A stretch of DNA of 64,000 bases, taken from contig NZ_JAHHZF010000001.1 in NCBI RefSeq assembly GCF_018729455.1, forward strand, positions 62,001 through 126,000, in the 5' to 3' direction. This document shows, one piece after another, positions 4,799 to 64,000 of this stretch; positions within the stretch are counted from its first letter, which is position 1; every line of letters starts with the position of its first letter. The notes beneath the pieces were generated by a model. It had not been told where the DNA came from. It ran no database searches and was given only the letters and a program-made list of their open reading frames with translations. A program made the position numbers and the translations under genes. The stretch comes from Prosthecodimorpha staleyi. GTDB taxonomy: Bacteria > Pseudomonadota > Alphaproteobacteria > Rhizobiales > Ancalomicrobiaceae.

Positions 4799-5235
4799 AA
4801 CTTTTCCCATCAGGCGGGAAAAGGGAATGTCGCGAAGTCGGCGTGAGGGGCGGACTGCCGGGGGATCGCGAGGCGGGAACAGCGGCGCGCCAGACCCAGG
4901 CGGCCTTGCAGCACTGTCAACCATTCATCCGGGCGGCACGGTCGACAATCCATCTGCAGGTCCGGTAACCTGCTGTTGGATCACAGAAACAGCCCAGTCC
5001 GATCCCGCGGCCCCTTCCCCTTCTCCCCCTGAGGGGGGAGAAGGTCGCCGAAGGCGGGATGAGGGGGGCGATGCTGCAACAGGCGCGAGACCCGCAGTCC
5101 GGTCGTCGATCGATCTTATTGACCGCGAGACCGTCCCCCTCATCCGCCCTTCGGGCACCTTCTCCCCCCTTCAGGGGGCGAAGGGGAGGTCGCGAGGGCA
5201 GTGCGAAAGACAGACAGACGGGGGCGCGCGGCGGT
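4799..5235. repeat. Compound palindromic intergenic repeat plus a degenerate fragment
   Basis: The 790-bp gap between the SDR gene and iorA holds no convincing gene. At 5012-5235 it carries a third compound element with the same arrangement as those at 1751-2303: left palindrome CCTTCTCCCC...GGGGAGAAGG with GGATGAGG, central spacer, then CCTCATCCGCCCTTCGGG and a second CCTTCTCCCC palindrome. A decayed copy of the trailing part (AGGGAATGTCGCGAAG, GGGGCGGACTGCCGGGGG) lies at about 4799-4885. Nothing recognisable is seen at 4523-4798 apart from the presumed leader of iorA. The repeats have diverged more than the pair at 1751-2303, so they look like an older insertion. Confidence 0.75.
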
Positions 5236-6106: not shown

Positions 6107-7737
6107 GCGCCGGATCCGGGCTGAGCGCCGGTGTTCGCGGAGGCGGACGCTCCGGAGGATTGTGCCGCGACGCGCTCGCGGTCCCAGGTGCCGGGCCCGA
6201 CGCCGCGTTCGCGCAGCTTGAACTTCTGCACCTTGCCGTTCTCGGTGCGCGGCAGGTCGGCGACGATGTCGATATAGCGCGGCACGGCAAAGCGCGGCAG
6301 GCGCGGGCCGCAGAAGGCGACCAGATCGGCCGGCGTCAGGCTTGCTCCCGCCTTGGGCACGATCGCGGCCATCACCTCGTCCTCGGCCAGATCGGAGCCG
6401 ACGGGGAAGACCGCCGCGGTCTCGATCGCCGGATGCGACAGCAGCACCTGCTCGACCTCGTGCGAGGAGATGTTCTCGCCGCGCCGGCGGATGGAATCCT
6501 TCAGCCGGTCGACGAAGCGGAAATGGCCGTCCTCGTCGCGGATGACGCGGTCGCCGGTGTGGAACCAGAGGTTCCGCCACGCCTCCACGGTCTTCTCCGG
6601 CATGCCGAAATAGCCCGTCGCGAAGGCGAAGGGTGCGTCGGCGCGCAGCACCAGTTCGCCGGGCGTGCCGTCCGGCAGGGCATTGTCCTCGCCGTCGACC
6701 ACGCGCGCCTCGAAGCCGGGGCGGACGCGGCCGATGCTGCCCGGCTTCTGGCCGGAAGCCGGGGCGCCGATAACGAAATTGGTCTCGGTCGAGCCATAAC
6801 CTTCGAGGAGGCGCACGCCGGTGCGTACGCGGAAGGCCTCGATCATGGCCGCCGGCACGCCCGGGCCGAGGCCGACCGTGACGCCGTGGGCGCGTTCCTC
6901 CGGCGTCTCCGGGCGCGACATCAGGATCGGCACCATGGCGCCGAGCAGGTAGACCCGCGTCGCGCCGGCCGCCACCATGGCCGGCCAGAAGCCGGAGGCG
7001 GAGAAGCGCGGCTCCAGATGCATGCGCGCGCCGGTGACCAGCGCCTGGGCGAAGGTGTTGAGCGCGTTGATGTGGAACAGCGGCAGCGTGGTGGCGAGCC
7101 CGTCGTCGGGGCCGATCTCGAGCAGGTCGGCGGTGTTGTGGCCCCACCAGTAATATTGCGCGTGCGGGCACATGACGCCCTTGGAGGGGCCGGTCGTGCC
7201 GGAAGTATAGAGGATGGCGAAGCTGTCGCCGGGGCCGAGATCGGCGGCGGCGACGGGGTCGGCGCGCTCCGGCCAGGGCTCGACCGGCACGCCGGCGATG
7301 GACCCGGCCGGCGGCTCGCCGAGGCACCAGATGGTAAGCATCGGCAGCGGTTCGGGGCCGGCATGATCGAGCCGGGCCAGGAATTCGGCCTCGGCGACCA
7401 GAAGCGCGGCACCGGCATTGCGCAGATAGTAGCCGATCTGCGGCCCCATCGCGGCGGTGTTGATCGGCACCGCGATCGCCCCGAGCCAGCCGCAGGCGAG
7501 CACCAGCTCCATCAGCTCTGCCCGGCTCGCCGACAGGACCGCGACCCGGTCGCCGCGCTGAATGCCGGCGGCGGCGAGCGCTCCGGCGCGGCCCGAGACC
7601 GCCGCAACGGCCTGCGCGACGCTCCAGCGGGTCTCGCCGACGGCGAAGAGCGGCCGGTCGGGTGCCCGGTCGGCGGCGGCGAGCAGCATCCGCGGCAGCG
7701 TGCGGGCCGCCGGCGGCAGGATCAGGCGGGCGCTCAT
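6103..7737 (-). CDS. Class I adenylate-forming acyl-CoA ligase
   Basis: 544 aa. The AMP-binding P-loop TSGTTGPSKG lies at residues 178-187. GYGSTETN follows later, the DRLKD hinge region (hinge Asp and the A8 region with RRRGEN) comes near the C-terminal third, and ENGKVQKFKLRE carries the conserved catalytic lysine near residue 520. The enzyme should activate a carboxylic acid as acyl-AMP and transfer it to CoA. It overlaps its upstream neighbour (cyclase family) and downstream neighbour (SDR) by ATGA junctions. Together with the Liv-type importer this suggests that an imported acid is thioesterified on entry. The exact acid is unknown; medium-chain or aryl acids are both possible. Confidence 0.88.
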   Translation of the reverse strand: MSARLILPPAARTLPRMLLAAADRAPDRPLFAVGETRWSVAQAVAAVSGRAGALAAAGIQRGDRVAVLSASRAELMELVLACGWLGAIAVPINTAAMGPQIGYYLRNAGAALLVAEAEFLARLDHAGPEPLPMLTIWCLGEPPAGSIAGVPVEPWPERADPVAAADLGPGDSFAILYTSGTTGPSKGVMCPHAQYYWWGHNTADLLEIGPDDGLATTLPLFHINALNTFAQALVTGARMHLEPRFSASGFWPAMVAAGATRVYLLGAMVPILMSRPETPEERAHGVTVGLGPGVPAAMIEAFRVRTGVRLLEGYGSTETNFVIGAPASGQKPGSIGRVRPGFEARVVDGEDNALPDGTPGELVLRADAPFAFATGYFGMPEKTVEAWRNLWFHTGDRVIRDEDGHFRFVDRLKDSIRRRGENISSHEVEQVLLSHPAIETAAVFPVGSDLAEDEVMAAIVPKAGASLTPADLVAFCGPRLPRFAVPRYIDIVADLPRTENGKVQKFKLRERGVGPGTWDRERVAAQSSGASASANTGAQPGSGA

Positions 7738-8528
7738 GCGCGCTGTCCGGCGGTGGGCACCAGGGCGAGCACGCGCAGCGGGCTACCGCTGCCCTGCAGG
7801 ATCTTCAGCGGCGCGGCGATCAGCACCGCCCCGGTCGGCGGCAGCAGGTCGAGGTTGGCGAGGCATTGCAGGCCGTATTTGCCGGCGCCGTGCATGTAGT
7901 AGTGGCACGGATAAGGCGGCAGGAAATGCGCCGCCTGGCCGGCATCGGTGCCGATCGTCTCGGTGCCGAAGCCGATCACGTCGCGCTCCTCGACCAGGAA
8001 GCGCACGCAGTCCGGGTCGGGGCCGGGCGTGTGCTGGCCGATCGCGTCGAAATTCTGGTAGGCGACTGGATCGGTCTTCTTCGACCAGTCGGTGCGCATC
8101 AGCACCCAGCTTCCCGCCGGGATGCGGCCATGCTCGGCTTCCCAGGCCTCCAGGAAGCCGCGGGTGAGCAGGAAGTCGGCGTCGCGGGCGGAGTCGGCGA
8201 CGCAGTCGATCACGCAGGCCGGGGCGATGAAGTCGCCGACCGGGATCGTGTCGCAGGAGCCGTTCGGCCGGTCGCGGCCGGAGACCCAATGTACCGGCGC
8301 ATCGAAATGCGTGCCGGTATGCTCGCCGAAGGAGAGATTGTTCCAGTACCAGGCGCCGCCGCGCTCGTCGTAGCGGGAAACCTCCTCCATCCGGAACGGC
8401 CGGCTTTGGCCGACTTCCGGCGGCAGCGTGATGTTGGGGAAATCCGGCGCCAGCGTATGGGTCAGGTCGACGATACGCAGGGCGCCGGTGCCGAGCGCGG
8501 CGAGGAGGTCAGTCAGGACGGCGGTCAT
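7734..8528 (-). CDS. Cyclase-family (KynB-like) metal-dependent hydrolase
   Basis: 264 aa. It carries the family signature HTGTHFDAPVHW, a metal-binding motif shared with bacterial kynurenine formamidase, isatin hydrolase and related cyclases, preceded by IVDLTHTL near the N-terminus. Such enzymes hydrolyse or cyclise amide, lactam or lactone bonds with Mn or Zn. I start it at the ATG of MTAVLTDLL, which overlaps the stop of the upstream DUF35-SDR gene (ATGA). Kynurenine formamidases are shorter (about 210 aa), so this longer member is probably a different hydrolase of the catabolic cluster. Its link with an indolepyruvate-type oxidoreductase makes an indole-derived or other ring-opened substrate possible, but that is inference. 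Confidence 0.8.
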   Translation of the reverse strand: MTAVLTDLLAALGTGALRIVDLTHTLAPDFPNITLPPEVGQSRPFRMEEVSRYDERGGAWYWNNLSFGEHTGTHFDAPVHWVSGRDRPNGSCDTIPVGDFIAPACVIDCVADSARDADFLLTRGFLEAWEAEHGRIPAGSWVLMRTDWSKKTDPVAYQNFDAIGQHTPGPDPDCVRFLVEERDVIGFGTETIGTDAGQAAHFLPPYPCHYYMHGAGKYGLQCLANLDLLPPTGAVLIAAPLKILQGSGSPLRVLALVPTAGQRA

Positions 8529-9763
8529 CGGCCGAGTTCCCGTTCGAGCGCCTTGGGGTTGTCGCGCAGGCGTGCGAGCCATTCCTGCGCCACGTCACCG
8601 GGATAGACATCCTCGACCGAGCCGCGCAGCGCCCCCAGGATGGCGTTGGCGACCGCGGCCGGGGCGAGCTTCGGCGGCAGGATCTGCTGGTTCCATTCGT
8701 CGTCGATCGGACCGGGGAACACGTTGACGACGCGCACGCCGCCGCGGCGCAGTTCTGCCCTGAGCGCCTGGGCATAGGAGAGCCCGGCCGCCATCGAGGC
8801 CGAATAGGTCGCCTCCTCGGGAAAATTGGCGATCGCGTAGATGGACAGGAGATTGACCCAGGCAACCGCGCTCGACTGTCCGTCGGCGCCGCGCGCGCGC
8901 ATCACCGGGCCGAAGGCCTTGGCGAGACGCAACAGCCCGAAGGCGTTGACCTCCATCTCCGCCTGCGCGGTCTCCACGCCGGCGCGGCCGAACAGCGAGT
9001 GGATGCGGTGGTAGCCGGCGGTGTTGACGACGATGTCGACCTTGAAGCCGATCTCGCCAGCCAGTTCATCGACCGAGCGGCTGTCGGTCACGTCGAGCGG
9101 CACCTCCGTGACGCCCGGCAGCGCGCGCGTCGCCGCCCAGCCGGGCGGATCCTTCCAGGGCTCGCACTGGCCGGCCCAGACGATGTCGGCCCCGGCCTCG
9201 ACCAGCGCCTTGACCACAGCCTGGCCGACCGGCGACTTGGCGTCGGTGACGAGGCATTTGCGGAAGCGCGGGTCGGCGGTCAGCTCGCGCAGCTTCGGAT
9301 CGTCGGCCGGCGTGCCGGTCCCGCCAGCGCGGGCGACCAGCACGGCCTGGCCGGCCCGGTCGAGCATGGCCGACAGCGTGACGCGGGCCGGTGCGCGCGG
9401 GGCGTCGTCCGGCAGGTGGACGACCACGGTCGCGCCCGCATCGAGCCGGACCAGCCCGGTGCGCCAGGGCGCGCGCTCCCGGAAATAGAGCTCCTGCGAA
9501 TGGTGCACGACCGTATCGGCGAGCAGGTCGCCGTTCGGGTCGGTCTCGCGCCATTCGAGCCGGTCGGACAGGCAGGCCGCGCAAGCGTCGCGCGGCGGAT
9601 ACTGCACCGCGCCGCATTCCAGGCAATGCTGCAGTTCGAACCGGCCGAGCGCGGCGGCACGGACCAGCCCGAGCGCCGTCCGGCTGCGCCGATCCGGCGG
9701 CAGGGTCGGCACGCGGCTGCGCAGGATCGGATTCTTGCGCTTGGGACGCGTGATCTTGGCCAT
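8525..9763 (-). CDS. Zinc-ribbon/OB-fold (DUF35) protein fused to a degenerate SDR domain
   Basis: 412 aa. Residues 40-70 have a rubredoxin-like zinc ribbon (CLECG then CAACL) followed by an OB-fold segment to about residue 150, the DUF35 layout. From about residue 175 to the end there is an SDR-like domain. The SDR part is unusual: the glycine motif reads TDAKSPVG instead of TGxxxGIG, and the active-site motif is YSASM, with Met where the catalytic Lys belongs. DUF35 proteins normally bind thiolase-like partners, and a thiolase-like gene lies just upstream in the same direction. Start ATG 9763 follows AGGG; an ATG two codons earlier is possible. The fused domain may be structural rather than catalytic (inference). 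Confidence 0.8.
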   Translation of the reverse strand: MAKITRPKRKNPILRSRVPTLPPDRRSRTALGLVRAAALGRFELQHCLECGAVQYPPRDACAACLSDRLEWRETDPNGDLLADTVVHHSQELYFRERAPWRTGLVRLDAGATVVVHLPDDAPRAPARVTLSAMLDRAGQAVLVARAGGTGTPADDPKLRELTADPRFRKCLVTDAKSPVGQAVVKALVEAGADIVWAGQCEPWKDPPGWAATRALPGVTEVPLDVTDSRSVDELAGEIGFKVDIVVNTAGYHRIHSLFGRAGVETAQAEMEVNAFGLLRLAKAFGPVMRARGADGQSSAVAWVNLLSIYAIANFPEEATYSASMAAGLSYAQALRAELRRGGVRVVNVFPGPIDDEWNQQILPPKLAPAAVANAILGALRGSVEDVYPGDVAQEWLARLRDNPKALERELGR

Positions 9764-9870
9764 GGTCATCCGCCCTGCCGTTGGAACATTGGGAGACAGC
9801 CCGCGTGGCTTGGGATGCCCCCGGACCGGCCGCTTCGCAGCGCTTCGCCGACACATCCACCATCCCCCGG

Positions 9871-10935
9871 CGCATTCCCGGACAGGGCGCGCAAGCGCCG
9901 CCGATCCGGGACCCACTCGCTCTGCGGCCGGCAGGGGATTTGCGGTTTCCTCCCGGTCCCGATCGCCCGCGTCGAGGCGAGTGGGTCCCGGCTCTCCGCT
10001 ACGCTGCGGCCGGGAATGCGGTGCGAGATCGGGGCTGAACCCACGAAACGCTCGGTGCCGGCCATCCATCCGCGATCCCGCGGCGCATTCCCGGACAAGG
10101 CGCGCGAGCGCCGCCGATCCGGGACCCACTCGCTCTGCGGCCGGCAGGGGATTTGCGGTTTCCACTCGGTCCCGATCGCCCGCTGCGATGAGAGTAGGTC
10201 CCGGCTCTCCGCTGCGCTTCGGCCGGGAATGCGTTGTGAGATGCGGGCAGAACCCGCGAAAAGCTCGATGCCCCCAACCCATCCACCATCCCGCGGCGCA
10301 TTCCCGGACAAGGCGCGCAAGCGCCGCCGATCCGGGACCCAATGGCGCAGCGGCCTGGTGGGGATCCGGGGTTCCAACTCGATCCCGATCGCCCGCTGCG
10401 AGGCGAGTGGGTCCCGGCTCTCCGCTACGCTGCGGCCGGGAATGCGTTGTGAGATGCGGGCAGAACCCGCGAAAAGCTCGATGCCCCCGACCCATCCACC
10501 ATCCAGCGGCGCATTCCCGGACAAGGCGCGTGAGCGCCGCCGATCCGGGACCCACTCGATCCGCGGCCCGGAGGGGATCAGCGGCTTGCTCTCTGTCCCG
10601 ATCGCCCGCTGCGAGGCGCGTGGGTCCCGGCTCTCCGCTGCGCTGCGCCCGGGAATGCGATGCGAGATGGGGGCAGAACCTCCGAAACGCTCGGTGCCGG
10701 CCATCCATCCGCGATCCCGCGGCGCATTCCCGGACAAGGCGCGCAAACGCCGCCGATCCGGGACCCACTCGCTGTGCGGCCGGCAGGGGACCTGCGGTTT
10801 CCACTCGGTCCCGATCGCCCGCTGCGAGGCGAGTGGGTCCCGGCTCTCCGCTGCGCCGCGGCCGGGAATGCGTTGTGAGATGCGGGCAGAACCCCCGAAA
10901 AGATCTGTGCCGCCTGAAGACCCACCGGGAATGCG
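9871..10935. repeat. 213-bp tandem repeat, five copies
   Basis: Five head-to-tail units begin at 9871, 10084, 10297, 10510 and 10723, each starting CGCATTCCCGGACA. The period is exactly 213 bp throughout. Every unit is itself a nested palindrome: CGCATTCCCGG pairs with CCGGGAATGCG, and inside it GGGACCCACTCGC pairs with GCGAGTGGGTCCC around a loop of about 60-75 bases. The linkers between units come in two versions (with CGGTGCCGGCCATCC or with CGATGCCCCC). A partial unit precedes the array at about 9840-9870. The array occupies the gap between the thiolase-like gene and the DUF35-SDR gene. Because 213 is a multiple of three, long but spurious reading frames cross it on both strands. Confidence 0.92.
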
Positions 10936-10962
10936 GTGCGGGATGACCATGATGCCCTCCCC

Positions 10963-12138
10963 TCAGGCCGCGGCCAGGATGGCGGCGCCAGTGCACAGGC
11001 CGCGGTCGAAATTGATCATGCCGAAGCCGGAGACGAGCGCGTGGCGGGCGTTGGGGACCTGTGCGCCGAGCGGGCGGCCGGTCAACTGCCGGACCGCCTC
11101 GACGAGCCCGAGCGAGCCGCCCGCCGCGCCGGCCTGGCCGACCGAGAGCTGGCCGCCGGAGGTGTTCAGCGGAAACGAGCCCTCGACCTCGAAGCCGTGG
11201 GCGCGGACGAAGGCCGGCCCCTCGCCCTTGGCGCAGAAACCGAGATCCTCGATCTGCATCAGGCTGATCACCGGATAGTCGTCATAGACCTCGACGAGGT
11301 CGATCTCTTCCGGGCCGAGGCCGGCGCGGCCGTAGAGCCGGTCGCGCTCCAAGACCCAGCCGCCGCGGATCTGGATCGGATCGGACGGGAAGGCGTTGTG
11401 GCGCTCGACCGCCGACAGGGCCCGGGCATAGGGCAGGCCGAGGCTCCGCGCCCGGTCCTCGCTCATGACCAGGAAGGCCTCGGCGCCGGCGCAGGGCATG
11501 ACGCAATCGAACAGGCGGATCGGGTCGGCGATCGGGCGAGAGGCGAGATAGTCGTCGAGCGTCAGCGGCTTCTTGAACAGGGCGAGCGGGTTCTTCAGCG
11601 CATTCGCGCGCTGCGCCACGCACAGGCGGCCGAAATCGGCCGGCTCGGCGCCGTATGTGCGCATGTAGTACTGGGTCAGGAAGGCGAAGCTCATGTTCGG
11701 CCCGCCGGCCGCATAAGGGTAGACCGCGTCGACCGCGAAGCGGCTGAAGCTCGACGTGTTCTGCCGGAAGCTGTCGACATGGTTGGTGTCGCCGGACAGG
11801 CAGGCGACGATCTCGGCGTCCCCCGCCTCGACAGCGCGCGCCGCCCGGCGCAGCGAGACGATGCCGGCCGCCCCGCCCATCGGGATATGGTCGAGCCAGC
11901 GCGGGCTGACGCCCAAATGCTGGGCGAGGCCGACGGCGGTGTCGGGGGCGAGCGAGAAGCTCGCCACACACAGCCCGTCGATGGCGTCCTTGGTGATGCC
12001 GGCGCCCTCGCACAGGAGCCGCAGCGCCCGGCCGAGGAACCAGTGCGCCGAGCGGATCGAATAGCGCACATAGGGCACCGTCACCGGCACGGCGACGGCC
12101 ACGCCCTGATAGCCCCGGCTCTCGCGGGTTCCGCTCAT
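10963..12138 (-). CDS. Thiolase-like protein (SCP2-thiolase / lipid-transfer type)
   Basis: 391 aa. The C-terminal half contains [15 protein letters not shown] followed by AAGG and LVSGFGM, typical of the thiolase superfamily, and the N-terminal half has [10 protein letters not shown]. The usual nucleophilic cysteine context of degradative thiolases is not evident: the region near residue 40 reads [10 protein letters not shown]. This is the pattern of lipid-transfer-like thiolases, some of which work as retro-aldolases together with DUF35 partners (for example Ltp2 with ChsH2 in steroid side-chain loss). A DUF35-SDR fusion is the next gene, which supports such a complex. The start overlaps the stop of the LivF gene (ATGA). 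A plain beta-ketothiolase role is less likely. Confidence 0.8.
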
Positions 12139-12857
12139 TCGGTGGCTCCGCCCAGATAGGTCGCCATGACACGAGGATCGTTGAGCAGGTCCGACGCCGC
12201 GCCGTGCAGCGCGATCTCGCCGGTCTCCAGGACGTAGCCGTAATCCGCCGTCTCCAGCGCCGCCCGGGCATTCTGTTCGACCAGCAGGATCGAGACGCCG
12301 GCATCGCGCAGGGTGGCGACGATGCGCAGGATGTCGCGCACGATCAGCGGCGCGAGGCCGAGGCTCGGTTCGTCGAGCAGGAGCAGCCGCGGCCCGGCCA
12401 TCAGCGCCCGGCCGATGGCGAGCATCTGCCGCTCGCCGCCCGAGAGCGTGTCGGCCCGCTGGCGCCGTCGCTCCGCGAGGCGCGGGAAGCGGTCGAAGAC
12501 GCCGTCGAGCGCGGACTTCACGAAGGCGCCGTCCTTGCGGCGCGAATAGGCGCCGAGGATCAGGTTGTCGCCGACCGTCATCTCGCCGAACAGTTCGCGC
12601 CGCTCCGGCACCAGGCAGAAACCGCGCTCGACGCGATCCTCGACGCCGAGTTCGTGCAGGTCGGCGCCCTCGAAGCGCAGCACGCCGCGCGACGGCAGCA
12701 GGCCCATGGCGGCGCCGAGCAGGGTCGTCTTGCCGGCCCCGTTCGGCCCGATCACGGTCACGATGCGGCCCTTGTCGAGCGTCAGCGACACGCCGCGCAC
12801 CGCCTCGACCTTGCCGTAGCCGACATGCAGGTCGGCGACCTCCAGCATGGCGCTCAT
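12135..12857 (-). CDS. livF: Branched-chain-type ABC transporter ATPase (LivF-like)
   Basis: 240 aa with Walker [10 protein letters not shown], signature LSGGERQM and Walker [12 protein letters not shown], plus the LVEQNAR switch region characteristic of LivF. It is one of two ATPase modules of a HAAT-family importer; it sits on the cytoplasmic face and powers uptake. GGAGGTG precedes the chosen ATG, which overlaps the stop of the fused LivM-LivG gene by ATGA. The thiolase gene starts within its stop. The HAAT family carries branched-chain amino acids but also aromatic acids and other small carboxylates. The catabolic neighbours make a non-amino-acid substrate more likely. Confidence 0.9.
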
Positions 12858-14620
12858 GCCACACCTCCGAGATAGGCGGCCTGGACATCCGGATTGCGAC
12901 GGATCGCGGCCGGCTCGCCCTCGGCGATGCGGGCGCCGAAGACCATCACGACCAGCCGGTCGACCAGGCCCATGACGAAGTCCATGTCGTGCTCCACGAC
13001 CAGGATGGCGAGGCCCTCGCGGCGCAGATCGGAGAGCAGCGCAGCCAGCGCCTCCTTCTCCTTGCGGCGCAGACCCGCGGCGGGTTCGTCGAGCACGATC
13101 ATGACCGGATCGGCGGCGAGCGCGCGGGCGACTTCGAGGATGCGCTGCTGGCCGAGCGGCAGGTTGCCGGCGAGATCCTCGGCCTTGTCGGCAAGCCCGA
13201 CGCGGGCGAGTTGCGCATAGGCATCGGCGCGGGCACGGGCCTCCTCGGCGCGGTCGAGCCGCAGACCGCCGGACAGCCAGCCGGCCCCGGTGCGCAGGTG
13301 GGCGCCGAGCATGACATTCTCGACCAGCGTCATGGCCGGGCGCAGCTTGACGTGCTGGAAGGTGCGGGCGACGCCGAGAGCGGCGATCCGGCGTTGCGGC
13401 ATGCGCGTGATGTCCTGGCCGAGAAATTCGATCCGGCCGGAAGAGGCACGCAGGGCGCCGGTCAGGAGGTTGAACATGGTGCTCTTGCCGGCGCCGTTCG
13501 GGCCGATCAGCCCCAGGATCTCGCCGGCCCTGAGCTCGAACGAGACCTTGTCGACGGCGACGAGGCCGCCGAAGCGCCGGACCGCCTGATCGACGCGGAG
13601 CACGGTCTGGCCGCGCTCGGGCAGCGTTCGGCGCGGCAGCGGATCGGCCCCGACCGGAGCGGACCGGCGGACGCGGGGCAGGAAGCGCGTCAGCATCGGC
13701 ACCAGGCCGCCGCGGGCATGGTGCATGATCACGATCAGGATCACCGCGAAGGCGATCTGCTCGTATTGCGCGGCGTTGCTGGTGACATGCGGCAGCACGT
13801 CCTGCAGCCAGTTCTTGAGCAGGGTCACCAGCCCCGCCCCGACCAGCGCGCCGACGATATGCGAGGCGCCGCCGACCAGCGCCATCAGGAGATATTCGAT
13901 CGACGGCTTAATCTCGAACGGCGCCGGGCTGACGAAGCGGCTCATATGGGCGTAGAGCCAGCCGGCGAGCCCGGCATAGAGGGCGGCGATCAGGAAGATC
14001 ACCAGCCGGGTCCGGAACGGATCGATGCCGACGCTGGCCATCAGGACGGGGCCGCCGCGCAAGGCGCGCACGGCCCGGCCTTGCCGGCTGTCGAGCAGGT
14101 TGGCGCCGAACAGCGCGCCGGCCCCGACCGCGGCCCAGATCAGCCAGTAGACGGCGCGGCTGTCGATCAGCGCGATCGCGCCGATGCTGACCGGCGGAAT
14201 CCCGGAGAGCCCGGTATGGCTGCCCAGCGCTTCGAAATTACCGAACAGATAGAAGATCGAGATGCCCCAGGCGATGGTCGAGAGCGGCAGGAAATGGCCG
14301 CCGAGCCGCAGCGTGACGGCGCCGATCAGGAGGGCAGCGAGGCCGGTCGTGAAGAGCGCGAAGGGCAGACCGAGCCAGGGCGAGACGCCGCCGGCCGTGG
14401 TCGCCCAGGCGGTCGAATAGGCGGCGACGCCGACGAAGGCGGCCTGGCCGAAGGAGGTCAGCCCGCCGATGCCGGTCAACAGCACCAGCCCGACCGCGAC
14501 CAGCGCGCCGATGCCGATATAGTTCATCAGCGTGACCGCGAAGGTCGACAGCACGGCTGGGGCGGCGGCGAGCAGACCGGCGGCGAGCAGGATGCCGAAC
14601 GGGCGCAGGGCGGCATTCAT
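12854..14620 (-). CDS. Fused permease-ATPase of a branched-chain-type ABC importer (LivM-LivG)
   Basis: 588 aa in one frame. Residues 1-310 form the LivM-type permease with about eight to ten hydrophobic segments and the [16 protein letters not shown] motif. After a short Arg/Pro-rich linker, residues 340-588 form a LivG-type ATPase: Walker [17 protein letters not shown] in place of LSGGQ, Walker [11 protein letters not shown] and VVEHDM. M-G fusions occur in several proteobacteria. The permease spans the inner membrane and the ATPase is cytoplasmic. The gene overlaps livH upstream and livF downstream by ATGA, so all three subunits are made from one message. Confidence 0.92.
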
Positions 14621-61199: not shown

Positions 61200-64000
61200 T
61201 CAGGTGGGGGGATTGGCGCGGGATTGGCGGAATTCGTCGGCTTCGCTTGCCCAACCGCTGAACCAGGGCGAAACAGCACCAACACTTTGTGATCGATGCA
61301 CCGTGCCATCCGGATCGATCCGCCGGGGGACATCGGGCAAGGGTCGGCCGGGCGGCCATTTCGCCTCTCGCAGATCCAGTTCTTTCACGGAGGCGGGAAG
61401 CGACGCCGCTGACTGGCGCAGGTCGAGCCTCGCCAAGCGCAAGGTCGCAAGGACCGGCAAGCGCGCCAGCGGCGACACGTCCGTTACCTTGGTGCCGGCG
61501 AGGTCCAGTCTCTCCAGCGCCGTGAGGCCGGACAGCGGCGACACATCCGTCACGCTGGTGTTGCCGAGATAAAGCGCCCTCAACGCCGTGAGGCCGGACA
61601 GCGGCGAAATGTCCATCACACCGGAGTTGCTGAGATCGAGCGTTTCCAGCGTTGTGAGGCCGGACAGCGGCGACATGTCCGTCACGTTGGTGTTGCCGAG
61701 AATGAGCGCCTCCAGCGCCGTCAAGCCGGATAGCGACGACACATCCGTCATGCCGGTGTTGGCGAGATAGAGCGTCTTCAGCGCCGTGAGGCCGGACAGC
61801 GGCGATACATCCGTCACGCCAGTGTTGTCGAGATCGAGCGTCTCCAGTGCCGTGAGTCCGGACAACGGCGACACATCCGTCACGCCGGTGTTTTCGAGAT
61901 CGAGCCTCTGCAGAGCCGTAAGGCCGGACAGCGGCGACACGTTCGTCACGCCGCTATTGCCGAGAGAGAGCGTCTCCAGCGCGGTGAGGCGAGATAGCGG
62001 CGACACGTCCGTCACGCCGGTGTAGGCGAGGCGGAACTCCCTCAGCGCCGTGAGGCCAGAAAGCGGTGATACATCCGTCACGCCGGTGTTGCCGAGAGCG
62101 AACGTTTCCAACGTAGTGAGGCCGGTTAGCGGCGACACGTCCAGCACGCCGGTATTGTTGAGATAGAGTTCGCTTAACGCCGTCAGGTCGGACAGTGGCG
62201 ACACATCCGTCACGCTGGTGTACGCGAGGCGGAGAGTCCTCAGCGCCGTGAGGCCGGACAGCGGCGACACGTCTGTCACACCGGTGTTGTCAAGATCGAG
62301 CGTCTGCAGAGCCGTCAAGCCGGACAGCGGCGAAACGTCCGCCACGCGGGCGCCGAAGAGAGCGAGCGTCGCCAGCGCCGAGAGTCCGGATAGTGGCGAA
62401 ATATCCGTTACGCCGGTGTTGCTGATTTCGAGCGTCTCCAGTGACGTTAGACCGGATAGCGGCGTCACATCCGTTACGCCGGTGTTGTCTAGAGCGAGCG
62501 TCTCCAGCGCTGTCAGGCCGGACAATGGCGAAACGTCCGTTAGGCCGTTTGTGCCGAGATTGAGCGATTTCAGCGCAGTAAGCCCGGACAGCGGCGACAA
62601 GTCCTTTGCGCCGTTAAACTCTAGATCGAGTTCCTCCAGCGCCTTGAGGTCGGACAGCGGCGACAGGTCCGTCACGCCGGTCCCGGATAGGTCGAGGTGC
62701 CGGATATGCGGAATCCATGCCGGCGGCGGAGCCTCACCGGCCAGGATCAACTTCCTCGCCTCGGCTTCGTAGTCGAACTCGCCGCCTTCCTCCGTGTCCT
62801 CCGAACCGTCCACGGCCGAAGCGTCCGGAAACACCGTGCGCGCCCTCGGCACCGGCTTGCGGGTGAGCAGGTCGATTGTGCCGCCGATCAGGCGGCGGAT
62901 ATCCTGGTGGCGGGCGGCGAAGTCGGCGATGGGGGCGCAGTGGTCCTGCAGGAAGACAGCAGCCTGCCTTACCCATTCGAGATTGGGATCGCCGGCTATA
63001 GTCGACAGGACCCAAACGCCGCTGCCGACCGTGCCAACCTCGCGCAAGGCCGACACCACCGCGCGCGCCAGCGCGCCGATGGCGTTCGCACCGACACCGG
63101 CCGCGGCGGCCACCACTTCGGGGGCCGGCGTGGTCGCCGCTGGGTTCGGATCGTCCGGGCTCGGCAGTGGCCTCGACGCGGCGGCGAGGATCGGGCGGGC
63201 GGAGGGCGCGAAAGGCGCATTCTTCTGGGCGAGCCGGTCCAGCGCCGCCCGCGTTGCGACCGCCTCGGCGACCGGATCGACGATCTCGCGCTCTCGGTTG
63301 CGGGCGTTCAGTGCCCGCCACTCCTGGAAGCCGAGACCGTATATCTCGACCACCCCGAGCAGCTTGTCGATGCCGGCGAGCAGGTCCGGCTCGATCGGTT
63401 CGGTCATGGTGCCGACAGCACGAGTCGCGCTGAACCGCGCATGCAGGGATTCGAGGCCGAACTTCGCCACCCAGAGACCCGCGACATCCGTACCGGCGAC
63501 CGAGTCGCCGAGGAAGGTCTTCAGGTCCTGGTATTCGTCGAAGACGCTCGGATGCGTGTTCTGCAGCCCGGTGATGCGGCGGTCGAGCCGATCGGCCGCG
63601 CGCTTCACCTGGCCGTGCAGGTTCACCTGCTGTGAATCGATCCGCTCCGCCGCCGCCGGGGGATCGTCGACCGGCGCGAAGCCGTCCGGTGTCAGCCCGA
63701 AGGTCGGGCCGGGCGCAGGGTTGAAGCGCGGATCCGGCGGCTTACTCAGCCAAGCCGCAATCGCCGCCTCGCTTTCGAGGATGACTGCGTGCCAGCCGTC
63801 GCGTTGCGGGCGCCAGTCGCGGACCGGGCGAAGATCGCGCTTGGCATCCGACGGCATCGCCTGCCGCGCGCCGAAGCGGCGTTGCCAGCTGCATTTTTCC
63901 AGGATGACGGTCAGCACCAGCGCGCCGCGGCCACGCTCGGCCTGCTCGATCGCCGGCGCCTCGGTCTCGGTGATGTAGGGCGAGGCGAGAGAGGCGCTGG
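61200..64000 (-). CDS. TIR-domain / leucine-rich-repeat protein, N-terminus beyond the window
   Basis: An open frame of 932 visible residues runs off the 3' edge of the window, so the true start is outside; the first GTG (63917) lies inside the TIR region. Visible residues 1-85 resemble the second half of a TIR domain: SPYITETEAPAIEQ (helix with the candidate catalytic Glu), strand LVLTVILEKCSWQ, then QAMP, LRPVRDW and the final helix. Residues 90-420 are mostly helical with a small-residue-rich stretch (AAAAGVGANAIGALARAVV); no P-loop or STAND ATPase is seen. Residues 431-848 are 19 perfect 22-residue repeats (ALETLDLDNTGVTDVSPLSGLT type) with end caps. The layout resembles an immune receptor; NADase function is inferred only. 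Confidence 0.8.
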   Translation of the reverse strand, partial: SASLASPYITETEAPAIEQAERGRGALVLTVILEKCSWQRRFGARQAMPSDAKRDLRPVRDWRPQRDGWHAVILESEAAIAAWLSKPPDPRFNPAPGPTFGLTPDGFAPVDDPPAAAERIDSQQVNLHGQVKRAADRLDRRITGLQNTHPSVFDEYQDLKTFLGDSVAGTDVAGLWVAKFGLESLHARFSATRAVGTMTEPIEPDLLAGIDKLLGVVEIYGLGFQEWRALNARNREREIVDPVAEAVATRAALDRLAQKNAPFAPSARPILAAASRPLPSPDDPNPAATTPAPEVVAAAAGVGANAIGALARAVVSALREVGTVGSGVWVLSTIAGDPNLEWVRQAAVFLQDHCAPIADFAARHQDIRRLIGGTIDLLTRKPVPRARTVFPDASAVDGSEDTEEGGEFDYEAEARKLILAGEAPPPAWIPHIRHLDLSGTGVTDLSPLSDLKALEELDLEFNGAKDLSPLSGLTALKSLNLGTNGLTDVSPLSGLTALETLALDNTGVTDVTPLSGLTSLETLEISNTGVTDISPLSGLSALATLALFGARVADVSPLSGLTALQTLDLDNTGVTDVSPLSGLTALRTLRLAYTSVTDVSPLSDLTALSELYLNNTGVLDVSPLTGLTTLETFALGNTGVTDVSPLSGLTALREFRLAYTGVTDVSPLSRLTALETLSLGNSGVTNVSPLSGLTALQRLDLENTGVTDVSPLSGLTALETLDLDNTGVTDVSPLSGLTALKTLYLANTGMTDVSSLSGLTALEALILGNTNVTDMSPLSGLTTLETLDLSNSGVMDISPLSGLTALRALYLGNTSVTDVSPLSGLTALERLDLAGTKVTDVSPLARLPVLATLRLARLDLRQSAASLPASVKELDLREAKWPPGRPLPDVPRRIDPDGTVHRSQSVGAVSPWFSGWASEADEFRQSRANPPT
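61455..62708 (-). repeat. 66-bp coding repeats (19 leucine-rich repeats)
   Basis: Nineteen consecutive 66-bp units with no insertions or deletions, each encoding a 22-residue LRR of the SDS22/internalin type (LxxLxLxNTxVTDVSPLSGLT). Unit 1 begins at 62708 (HIRHLDL) and unit 19 ends at 61455. Variation is concentrated at the residues between LxL and NT and at the first exposed positions. The backbone DNA is highly uniform, which suggests recent expansion or homogenisation. Confidence 0.9.

Follow-up and report, generated by a model that had tools for sequence, protein, structure and literature searches.

A head-to-tail array of BIME-like REP dimers between a thiolase-like gene and its DUF35 partner in Prosthecodimorpha staleyi

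Between a thiolase-like gene of Prosthecodimorpha staleyi (Thiolase_C_1, minus strand, 10963..12138) and the gene downstream of it, which encodes a zinc-ribbon/OB-fold (ChsH2/DUF35-type) and short-chain dehydrogenase fusion (DUF35-SDR, minus strand, 8525..9763), lies an array of five palindromic repeats, and the question raised by this locus is whether the array serves the two genes or is repetitive DNA that has settled between them. The locus was analysed within a window of 64,000 nucleotides (contig NZ_JAHHZF010000001.1, positions 62,001 to 126,000), in which the gene order is as claimed by a preliminary description made from the sequence. The array is intergenic, and its two neighbours belong to a series of genes on the minus strand, among them branched-chain-type ABC transporter, AMP-ligase and cyclase genes. 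We interpret it as a BIME-like array in which REP dimers follow one another head to tail and split a tight gene pair, and which is probably a passenger changed by slippage or recombination of the host.

The units start at 9871, 10084, 10297, 10510 and 10723, as originally reported, and all four spacings between them (213, 213, 213 and 213 bp) are equal. The array had been called exact, which holds for its period and not for its copies, since the units are 85-91% identical pairwise, spacer included. Tandem Repeats Finder places the repeat at 9854-10902, with a period of 213, 4.9 copies, 87% matches, 0% indels and a score of 1587. Each unit consists of a 160-bp element followed by a spacer of about 53 bp, and the five elements, all REP dimers annotated on the plus strand, occupy 9871..10030, 10084..10243, 10297..10456, 10510..10669 and 10723..10882. 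Unit 1 is composed of a left hairpin, a variable centre and a right hairpin. Its left hairpin (9876..9911, plus strand) has an outer stem at 9876-9882/9905-9911 and an inner stem at 9886-9890/9895-9899, with a GTRG motif beside it at 9913-9916 on the minus strand, and its right hairpin (9986..10015, plus strand) has a GTRG motif at 9981-9984. The arms of the proposed two-level inverted repeat are present to different degrees: every one of the five units has both outer arms, CGCATTCCCGG and CCGGGAATGCG, unchanged, while only two, the first and the fifth, keep both sides of the inner pair GGGACCCACTCGC/GCGAGTGGGTCCC unaltered. A lone CCGGGAATGCG outer arm at 10925..10935 (plus strand) is probably the remnant of a further, partial unit. 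The spacers are mosaic, spacer 1 resembling spacer 4 (94%) and spacer 2 resembling spacer 3 (97%), with 60-81% identity for the remaining pairs. The 11-base core GTRGGYCCCGG occurs nine times in the window, all within the array, against an expectation of 0.15 per 64 kb from 20 first-order Markov simulations. A known Rfam family was rejected as the identity of the array, as no Rfam model matched 8000-13000 at gathering thresholds. We also noted an 11-bp perfect inverted repeat, CATGGTCATCC/GGATGACCATG, at 9761-9771 and 10941-10951, the edges of the inserted region; read by eye, the left copy is kept in Prosthecomicrobium hirschii and the right copy is only partial.

Two explanations that bear on the array itself can be weighed at this point. 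Because 213 is 3 x 71, reading frames stay open across the array, and open frames of 394, 403, 759 and 823 amino acids cross it on the two strands, as would be expected if it encoded a repeat protein. However, both strands carry open frames simultaneously, which can happen in GC-rich DNA. A gene caller based on codon scores places the start of the downstream gene at 9769 and predicts nothing within the array, and many periods of the same repeat elsewhere are not multiples of three, e.g. 202, 203, 205, 206 and 227. On these grounds a coding array was rejected, and we give it hardly any chance. The second explanation is an assembly artefact, in which one or two true copies were falsely expanded; the window genome is indeed a draft of 47 contigs, as P. 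hirschii is a draft, and several other copies of the repeat lie at contig ends. Nevertheless, P. hirschii was assembled independently and has many such arrays. Any two of the window units, moreover, are unlike at 9-15% of positions, which makes it very unlikely that a single copy was falsely expanded, and we regard an artefact as extremely improbable.

The spacing of the two genes was compared with that in other bacteria, with start codons chosen, and genes called, by purpose-written scripts. Nine of the 11 loci fetched from outside Prosthecomicrobium hold both the thiolase and the DUF35 gene, and in all nine the gap is between -4 and +37 bp, and at the chosen start five of them show a 4-base overlap; L003, which is among the nine, belongs to the same family as the window organism. 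The other two stretches start near the partner gene and hold no thiolase match. The gap is 443 bp in P. hirschii and 1199 bp in the window, or 1193 bp from an in-frame ATG at 9769 that is an alternative start of the DUF35-SDR gene. Since the genes overlap or lie within 37 bp in every other locus with both, the array has separated an otherwise tight pair, and comparison of these loci suggests that the pair was probably ancestrally tight and translationally coupled. A consensus scan of 9700-11000 gave no sigma-70-like promoter, so the DUF35-SDR gene may still need read-through from upstream, and no intrinsic-terminator-like site was found in the same interval.

The unit was then used to search other genomes. 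By BLASTN, one unit gave 106 matches in the window's own genome (G000), 109 in Prosthecomicrobium hirschii strain 16 (G001; NZ_LJYW01000001.1 and NZ_LJYW01000002.1) and 35 in a third congeneric genome (G002). The remaining 12 genomes of the family gave no match, and of 26 from other families two gave matches, 27 and 2 in number. A deeper search gave 51 matches in G002, 36 in G018 and 2 in G027, those in G018 and G027 covering the right hairpin alone. The pattern GTRGGYCCCGG-N14-28-CCGGGRAT matched at 116 places in G000 and at 187 in G001, a high copy number of the kind that defines REPs, and the reversed control was found in neither; in a draw of 150 genomes of the order, to which G002 did not belong, the pattern occurred once each in two of the 148 others and the reversed control once each in two of the 150. 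One unit had no match in a plasmid collection of 72,556 records. Among the papers found under the name of the genus, none dealt with such repeats, as judged by title or abstract opening, and the genome note on P. hirschii (PMC4653794) does not mention repeats.

A unit profile was run on 41 stretches that were picked from the strongest BLASTN matches and do not comprise all arrays of any genome; arrays were seen outside them, e.g. at C2:446704-447381 in G000 and C1:1205675-1207742 in G001. It detected 171 units, 158 of them full length, with units in 40 stretches and a full-length one in 39. Arrays of at least two full units number at least 18 in G000 and at least 18 in G001, the largest clusters having 6 and 12 full units, respectively, and array periods are mostly about 200 to 350 bp, depending on the locus. 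A regular tandem array had been thought unusual, but 40 of the 42 multi-unit clusters in the genus, partial units counted, keep one unit orientation throughout, head to tail. The window array is ordinary for its genus.

In order to characterize the fold of the unit we used an alignment (A1) of 64 of the 158 full-length units, one or two per locus, which includes all five window units and omits those of G002. Two local hairpins account for this alignment with 98.9% of cells paired, 5 of 18 pairs changed on both sides and a covariation of 0.120, against 0.049 ± 0.004 in shuffles and reached by 0/500 of them, whereas the nested structure is 86.2% paired and its covariation of 0.049 is below the 0.068 of its shuffles and was reached by 500/500; these counts are of sequences, not of independent events. 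By one of the five measures, the number of further standard pair types, the local hairpins have no advantage (8 versus 8.8 in shuffles, reached by 495/500). At pair 6-41, numbered along the unit, 44 of the 64 units have C-G and 17 have T-A; at pair 116-145, T-A is present in 51 and C-G in 13. Just 30% of units have a standard pair between 6 and 145, as the nested structure would require. The fold that RNAalifold gives unaided likewise contains both local hairpins and lacks the nested arms as first drawn. Since the local hairpins covary and the nested pairs do not, the unit consists of two inverted REP hairpins around a variable centre. The nested palindrome was rejected as a working or conserved structure, in view of its covariation below shuffles and of one outer pair seldom being standard; the window units are among the minority whose long arms also match, which is why it drew attention at the outset.

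Further features of the hairpins were read from A1. At positions 6 and 145, 53 of the 64 dimers combine one C-G-type with one T-A-type hairpin, so that the left and right arms are mismatched there, perhaps reflecting avoidance of long perfect palindromes. The inner ends carry GTRG in 58/64 left and 60/64 right hairpins of G000 and G001, and it is absent in the four G002 units that were read. The left outer ends are mostly CGCAT, and in none of the 64 units do they read CGTC.

REPs and BIMEs are usually discussed alongside RAYT transposases. The RAYT profiles PF01797 and NF047646 each matched none of the three genus genomes, while among 14 control genomes PF01797 matched 5 and NF047646 matched 6; PF01797 also matched 9 of 41 relatives, none of them among the five genomes with BLASTN matches to the unit. 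A RAYT detectable by these profiles was therefore rejected for the genus genomes, which lack in this respect the cognate transposase of a REPIN/RAYT system. The units are built as REPs, with short palindromic hairpins of conserved pairing, and arranged as BIMEs, with alternating REPs in head-to-tail modules.

A close likeness is that to BIME-2 of enterobacteria and Stenotrophomonas. The available text of PMC2817692 describes BIMEs as alternating REPs in head-to-tail modules, with locus-specific inter-REP segments, length polymorphism between strains and palindromes preserved by complementary changes, all of which are shared by the arrays described here. Unlike BIME-2, they come with no RAYT gene detected in the genus, their modules are long (about 160 bp plus a spacer of roughly 40-190 bp), and 14 of the 15 units that the profile found in an 864-kb sample, made up of the window and 40 stretches of 20 kb, belong to arrays, three in number, the fifteenth being a partial copy. 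REPIN clusters of Pseudomonas fluorescens SBW25 are likewise tandem, near-identical REP doublets that include flanking sequence, but in the consulted part of that report (PMC3116915) most REPINs stand alone, no such cluster exceeds four and RAYT genes adjoin three of the clusters, whereas the clusters here reach 12 full units and no RAYT was found.

The alphaproteobacterial relatives were also compared. The CGTC and GTAG superfamilies of Di Nocera and co-workers (2013) are, in the accessible portion of PMC3733652, short palindromes occurring as dimers and tandem dimers, mostly in unidirectional or convergent gaps, as is the case here, with CGTC REPs predominating in alphaproteobacteria and having no dedicated transposase. 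The outer end of the present element is, however, mostly CGCAT and not CGTCAT, so that the motif of the CGTC superfamily is not seen beside the palindrome. A CGTC-tagged right hairpin of the same kind was found in 3 of 71 genomes, from three other families of the order (16 places in G018, 3 in G027 and 14 in G047), and in none of G000, G001 and G002. As for the GTAG superfamily, which is marked by an unpaired GTAG (GTGG) motif next to the palindrome, GTRG lies beside most hairpins in G000 and G001 but not in the four G002 units. Br-REP1 and Br-REP2 of Bradyrhizobium are likewise palindromes; their ends read CCGGAAT, they occur between genes and in 3' UTRs, and the abundance of Br-REP1 differs strongly between species; their loop sequences differ from ours, and the sections of PMC5082802 on these elements do not describe tandem arrays.

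The genomic position of the arrays was analysed for 42 of 45 clusters, three being unclassifiable and dropped, with genes called by a purpose-written caller. The clusters lie in 26 unidirectional, 14 convergent and 2 divergent gaps, compared with 241, 43 and 95, respectively, among background gaps of at least 100 bp, that is, in fewer divergent (Fisher p 0.0017) and more convergent gaps (p 0.0004); the p-values are somewhat too small because shared loci are counted in both species, and the background includes the window, L084 and L087, the arrays of the last two having also been analysed as L055 and L059. They are thus placed mostly in convergent and unidirectional gaps, as extragenic REPs are, and only one of the 45 overlaps a gene call, a low-scoring one. 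In unidirectional gaps the cluster is closer to the upstream stop than to the downstream start in 20/26 (p 0.009). The orientation of the units relative to transcription looks random, with 14 in the same and 12 in the opposite direction.

These positions bear on the possibility that the array is a selected expression device, whose hairpins lower or time DUF35-SDR relative to the thiolase by attenuation, Rho-dependent termination or 3'-end protection, with copy number as the dial. Such a role would fit an array that sits between genes overlapping or adjoining in nine of nine other loci, the compensatory changes that conserve both hairpins of the unit and the location of the arrays, as a group, 3' of genes, and E. 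coli REPs are reported in the available text of PMC5082802 and PMC2817692 to affect termination and mRNA decay. Against it, units face either way relative to transcription, the same kind of array occurs at no fewer than 17 other loci of the window genome, copy number is five here and apparently one in P. hirschii, and the terminator and promoter scans of the region gave nothing. We consider a selected device unlikely. The array region, when folded as RNA, was very stable, but this was calculated without a shuffle control and is not counted as evidence.

The array loci were compared with those of P. hirschii. In this species the flanks of the window locus are 94-95% identical and enclose one full unit with fragments on both sides, compared with five units in the window. 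At seven other loci with both flanks matched, the window genome and P. hirschii have 3 and 8, 3 and 5, 6 and 4, 1 and 4, 2 and 5, 1 and 8, and 2 and 6 units, so that copy number is unequal at 8/8 loci in these draft assemblies, in a comparison that takes only loci with an array in both species; eight G000 loci had no partner among the fetched G001 stretches. The preliminary description had named randomly scattered copy number, together with uniform coverage across the region, as evidence against its reading, and such scatter is found in part, as a difference between species at each of these loci. A change in copy number does not show absence of function.

The P. hirschii genome was assembled from 454 and MiSeq reads with MaSuRCA (PMC4653794). 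Its 71-kb contig C2 starts inside the unit at the window locus and repeats 1,513 bases identical to C1 (L061 1-1513, L013 6694-8206), after which C1 loses collinearity; the repeat is either a real duplication or an assembly break at a repeat. Because C2 begins within a unit, the count of one there is uncertain, a doubt shared by the other copy numbers from draft assemblies.

In a tree, the P. hirschii unit and the five window units form a clade of six (support 0.908), in which the P. hirschii unit is placed closest to unit 3, with a weak support of 0.65. Mean identity among units is 0.892 within the window locus, 0.875 to the P. hirschii unit and 0.70-0.71 to the nearest other locus. Since divergence within the array is about that between the species, and the P. 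hirschii unit is nested in the tree, the array may predate the species split, in which case the sequences would point to a loss of units in P. hirschii instead of growth in the window lineage. Ten other locus pairs behave differently. Their identity between species is 0.77-0.86; in 7/10 this falls short of all available within-array values, and in 10/10 a closer match is found at another locus of the same genome. The latter comparison is biased towards the same genome, since the best of many loci was taken, and for three of the ten pairs a single flank was matched or the flank was rearranged. These values suggest homogenisation or turnover of arrays within a genome.

The idea that the arrays are hotspots of recombination received some support. 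Between the two species, a 7.7-kb segment (L120 5962-13625 versus L119 9498-17248) runs in opposite directions with respect to its flanks, and REP arrays border it on either side. In these draft assemblies, which are joined across repeats, it appears as an inversion whose breakpoints fall at arrays. A simple reading is complicated by the mixed orientation of one of the two arrays in G000 and by about 4.3 kb of unmatched sequence that separates one array from the segment in G001. Separately, the P. hirschii array L121 has on one side a sequence that in G000 flanks a contig end (C12) and on the other side one that flanks an array on C11 (L121, L122, L123), which may be either a rearrangement or a contig break at the array.

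Such an inversion, together with a layout that fits BIME-2 as presented in the available text of PMC2817692, could also be read as a role at the DNA level, in which the units would be putative sites for gyrase, IHF or other nucleoid proteins, as reported for E. coli BIMEs, or sites of recombination and inversion. However, the inversion depends on those same joins, with one array of mixed orientation in G000 and unmatched sequence beside the segment in G001, the eight loci compared above are collinear on both sides between the species, and recombination at repeats is an effect of repeats and no proof of a role. We think such a role distinctly improbable.

Taken together, the arrays resemble ordinary repetitive DNA, which expands, contracts and recombines, more than a purpose-built switch, and among the options originally offered a slipped cluster of mobile palindromes is the best supported. 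We propose that a REP dimer would have arrived, in the Prosthecomicrobium lineage, between two genes that overlap or adjoin elsewhere, and that the number of copies at the locus would then have risen or fallen, through slippage during replication or unequal recombination of units, as in the other arrays. It is from the homology, the copy-number difference between two draft genomes, the uniform orientation and the mosaic spacers that we infer slippage or recombination as the process. Since no REP transposase was detected, present change is most likely due to host recombination and replication and not to transposition, and the position of the arrays as a group suggests that this one persists because it lies 3' of a coding region, away from promoters, at low cost. 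As RNA, the array would fold into strong hairpins, one after another, downstream of the stop codon of the thiolase gene, and these are predicted to stabilise or end the upstream transcript. The array has probably uncoupled translation of DUF35-SDR from that of the thiolase gene, as judged from the gene spacing.

We also considered a more far-reaching reading, namely a transposase-free, array-based REP lineage in which it is whole tandem arrays and not single REPs that persist. Arrays at shared loci would be homogenised within a genome and would flip segments of the chromosome, and an array that landed in a coupled pair with overlapping stop and start would have made a spacer whose variable copy number sets the ratio of the two proteins; as a whole this is rather doubtful. 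On the preferred reading, a passenger array of BIME-like REP dimers, the two sister genomes, with more than 100 REPs each, mostly in tandem where sampled, and no RAYT detected, offer a clean setting for the study of array growth, homogenisation and rearrangement by the host alone. The window locus is in addition a natural experiment, in which the same gene pair is tight elsewhere, 443 bp apart in one species and 1199 bp apart in the other.

Other repeats were observed in the window. A second palindromic-looking family (CCTTCTCCCC...GGGGAGAAGG) is present at 1758-2255, with 3.2 copies of 152 bp, and at about 5004-5196, and the P. hirschii stretch L061 matches both places at about 7355-7559. A 66-bp tandem repeat of 18.4 copies lies at 61467-62681, and since its unit corresponds to 22 codons we would guess that it is possibly a leucine-rich-repeat-like coding region.
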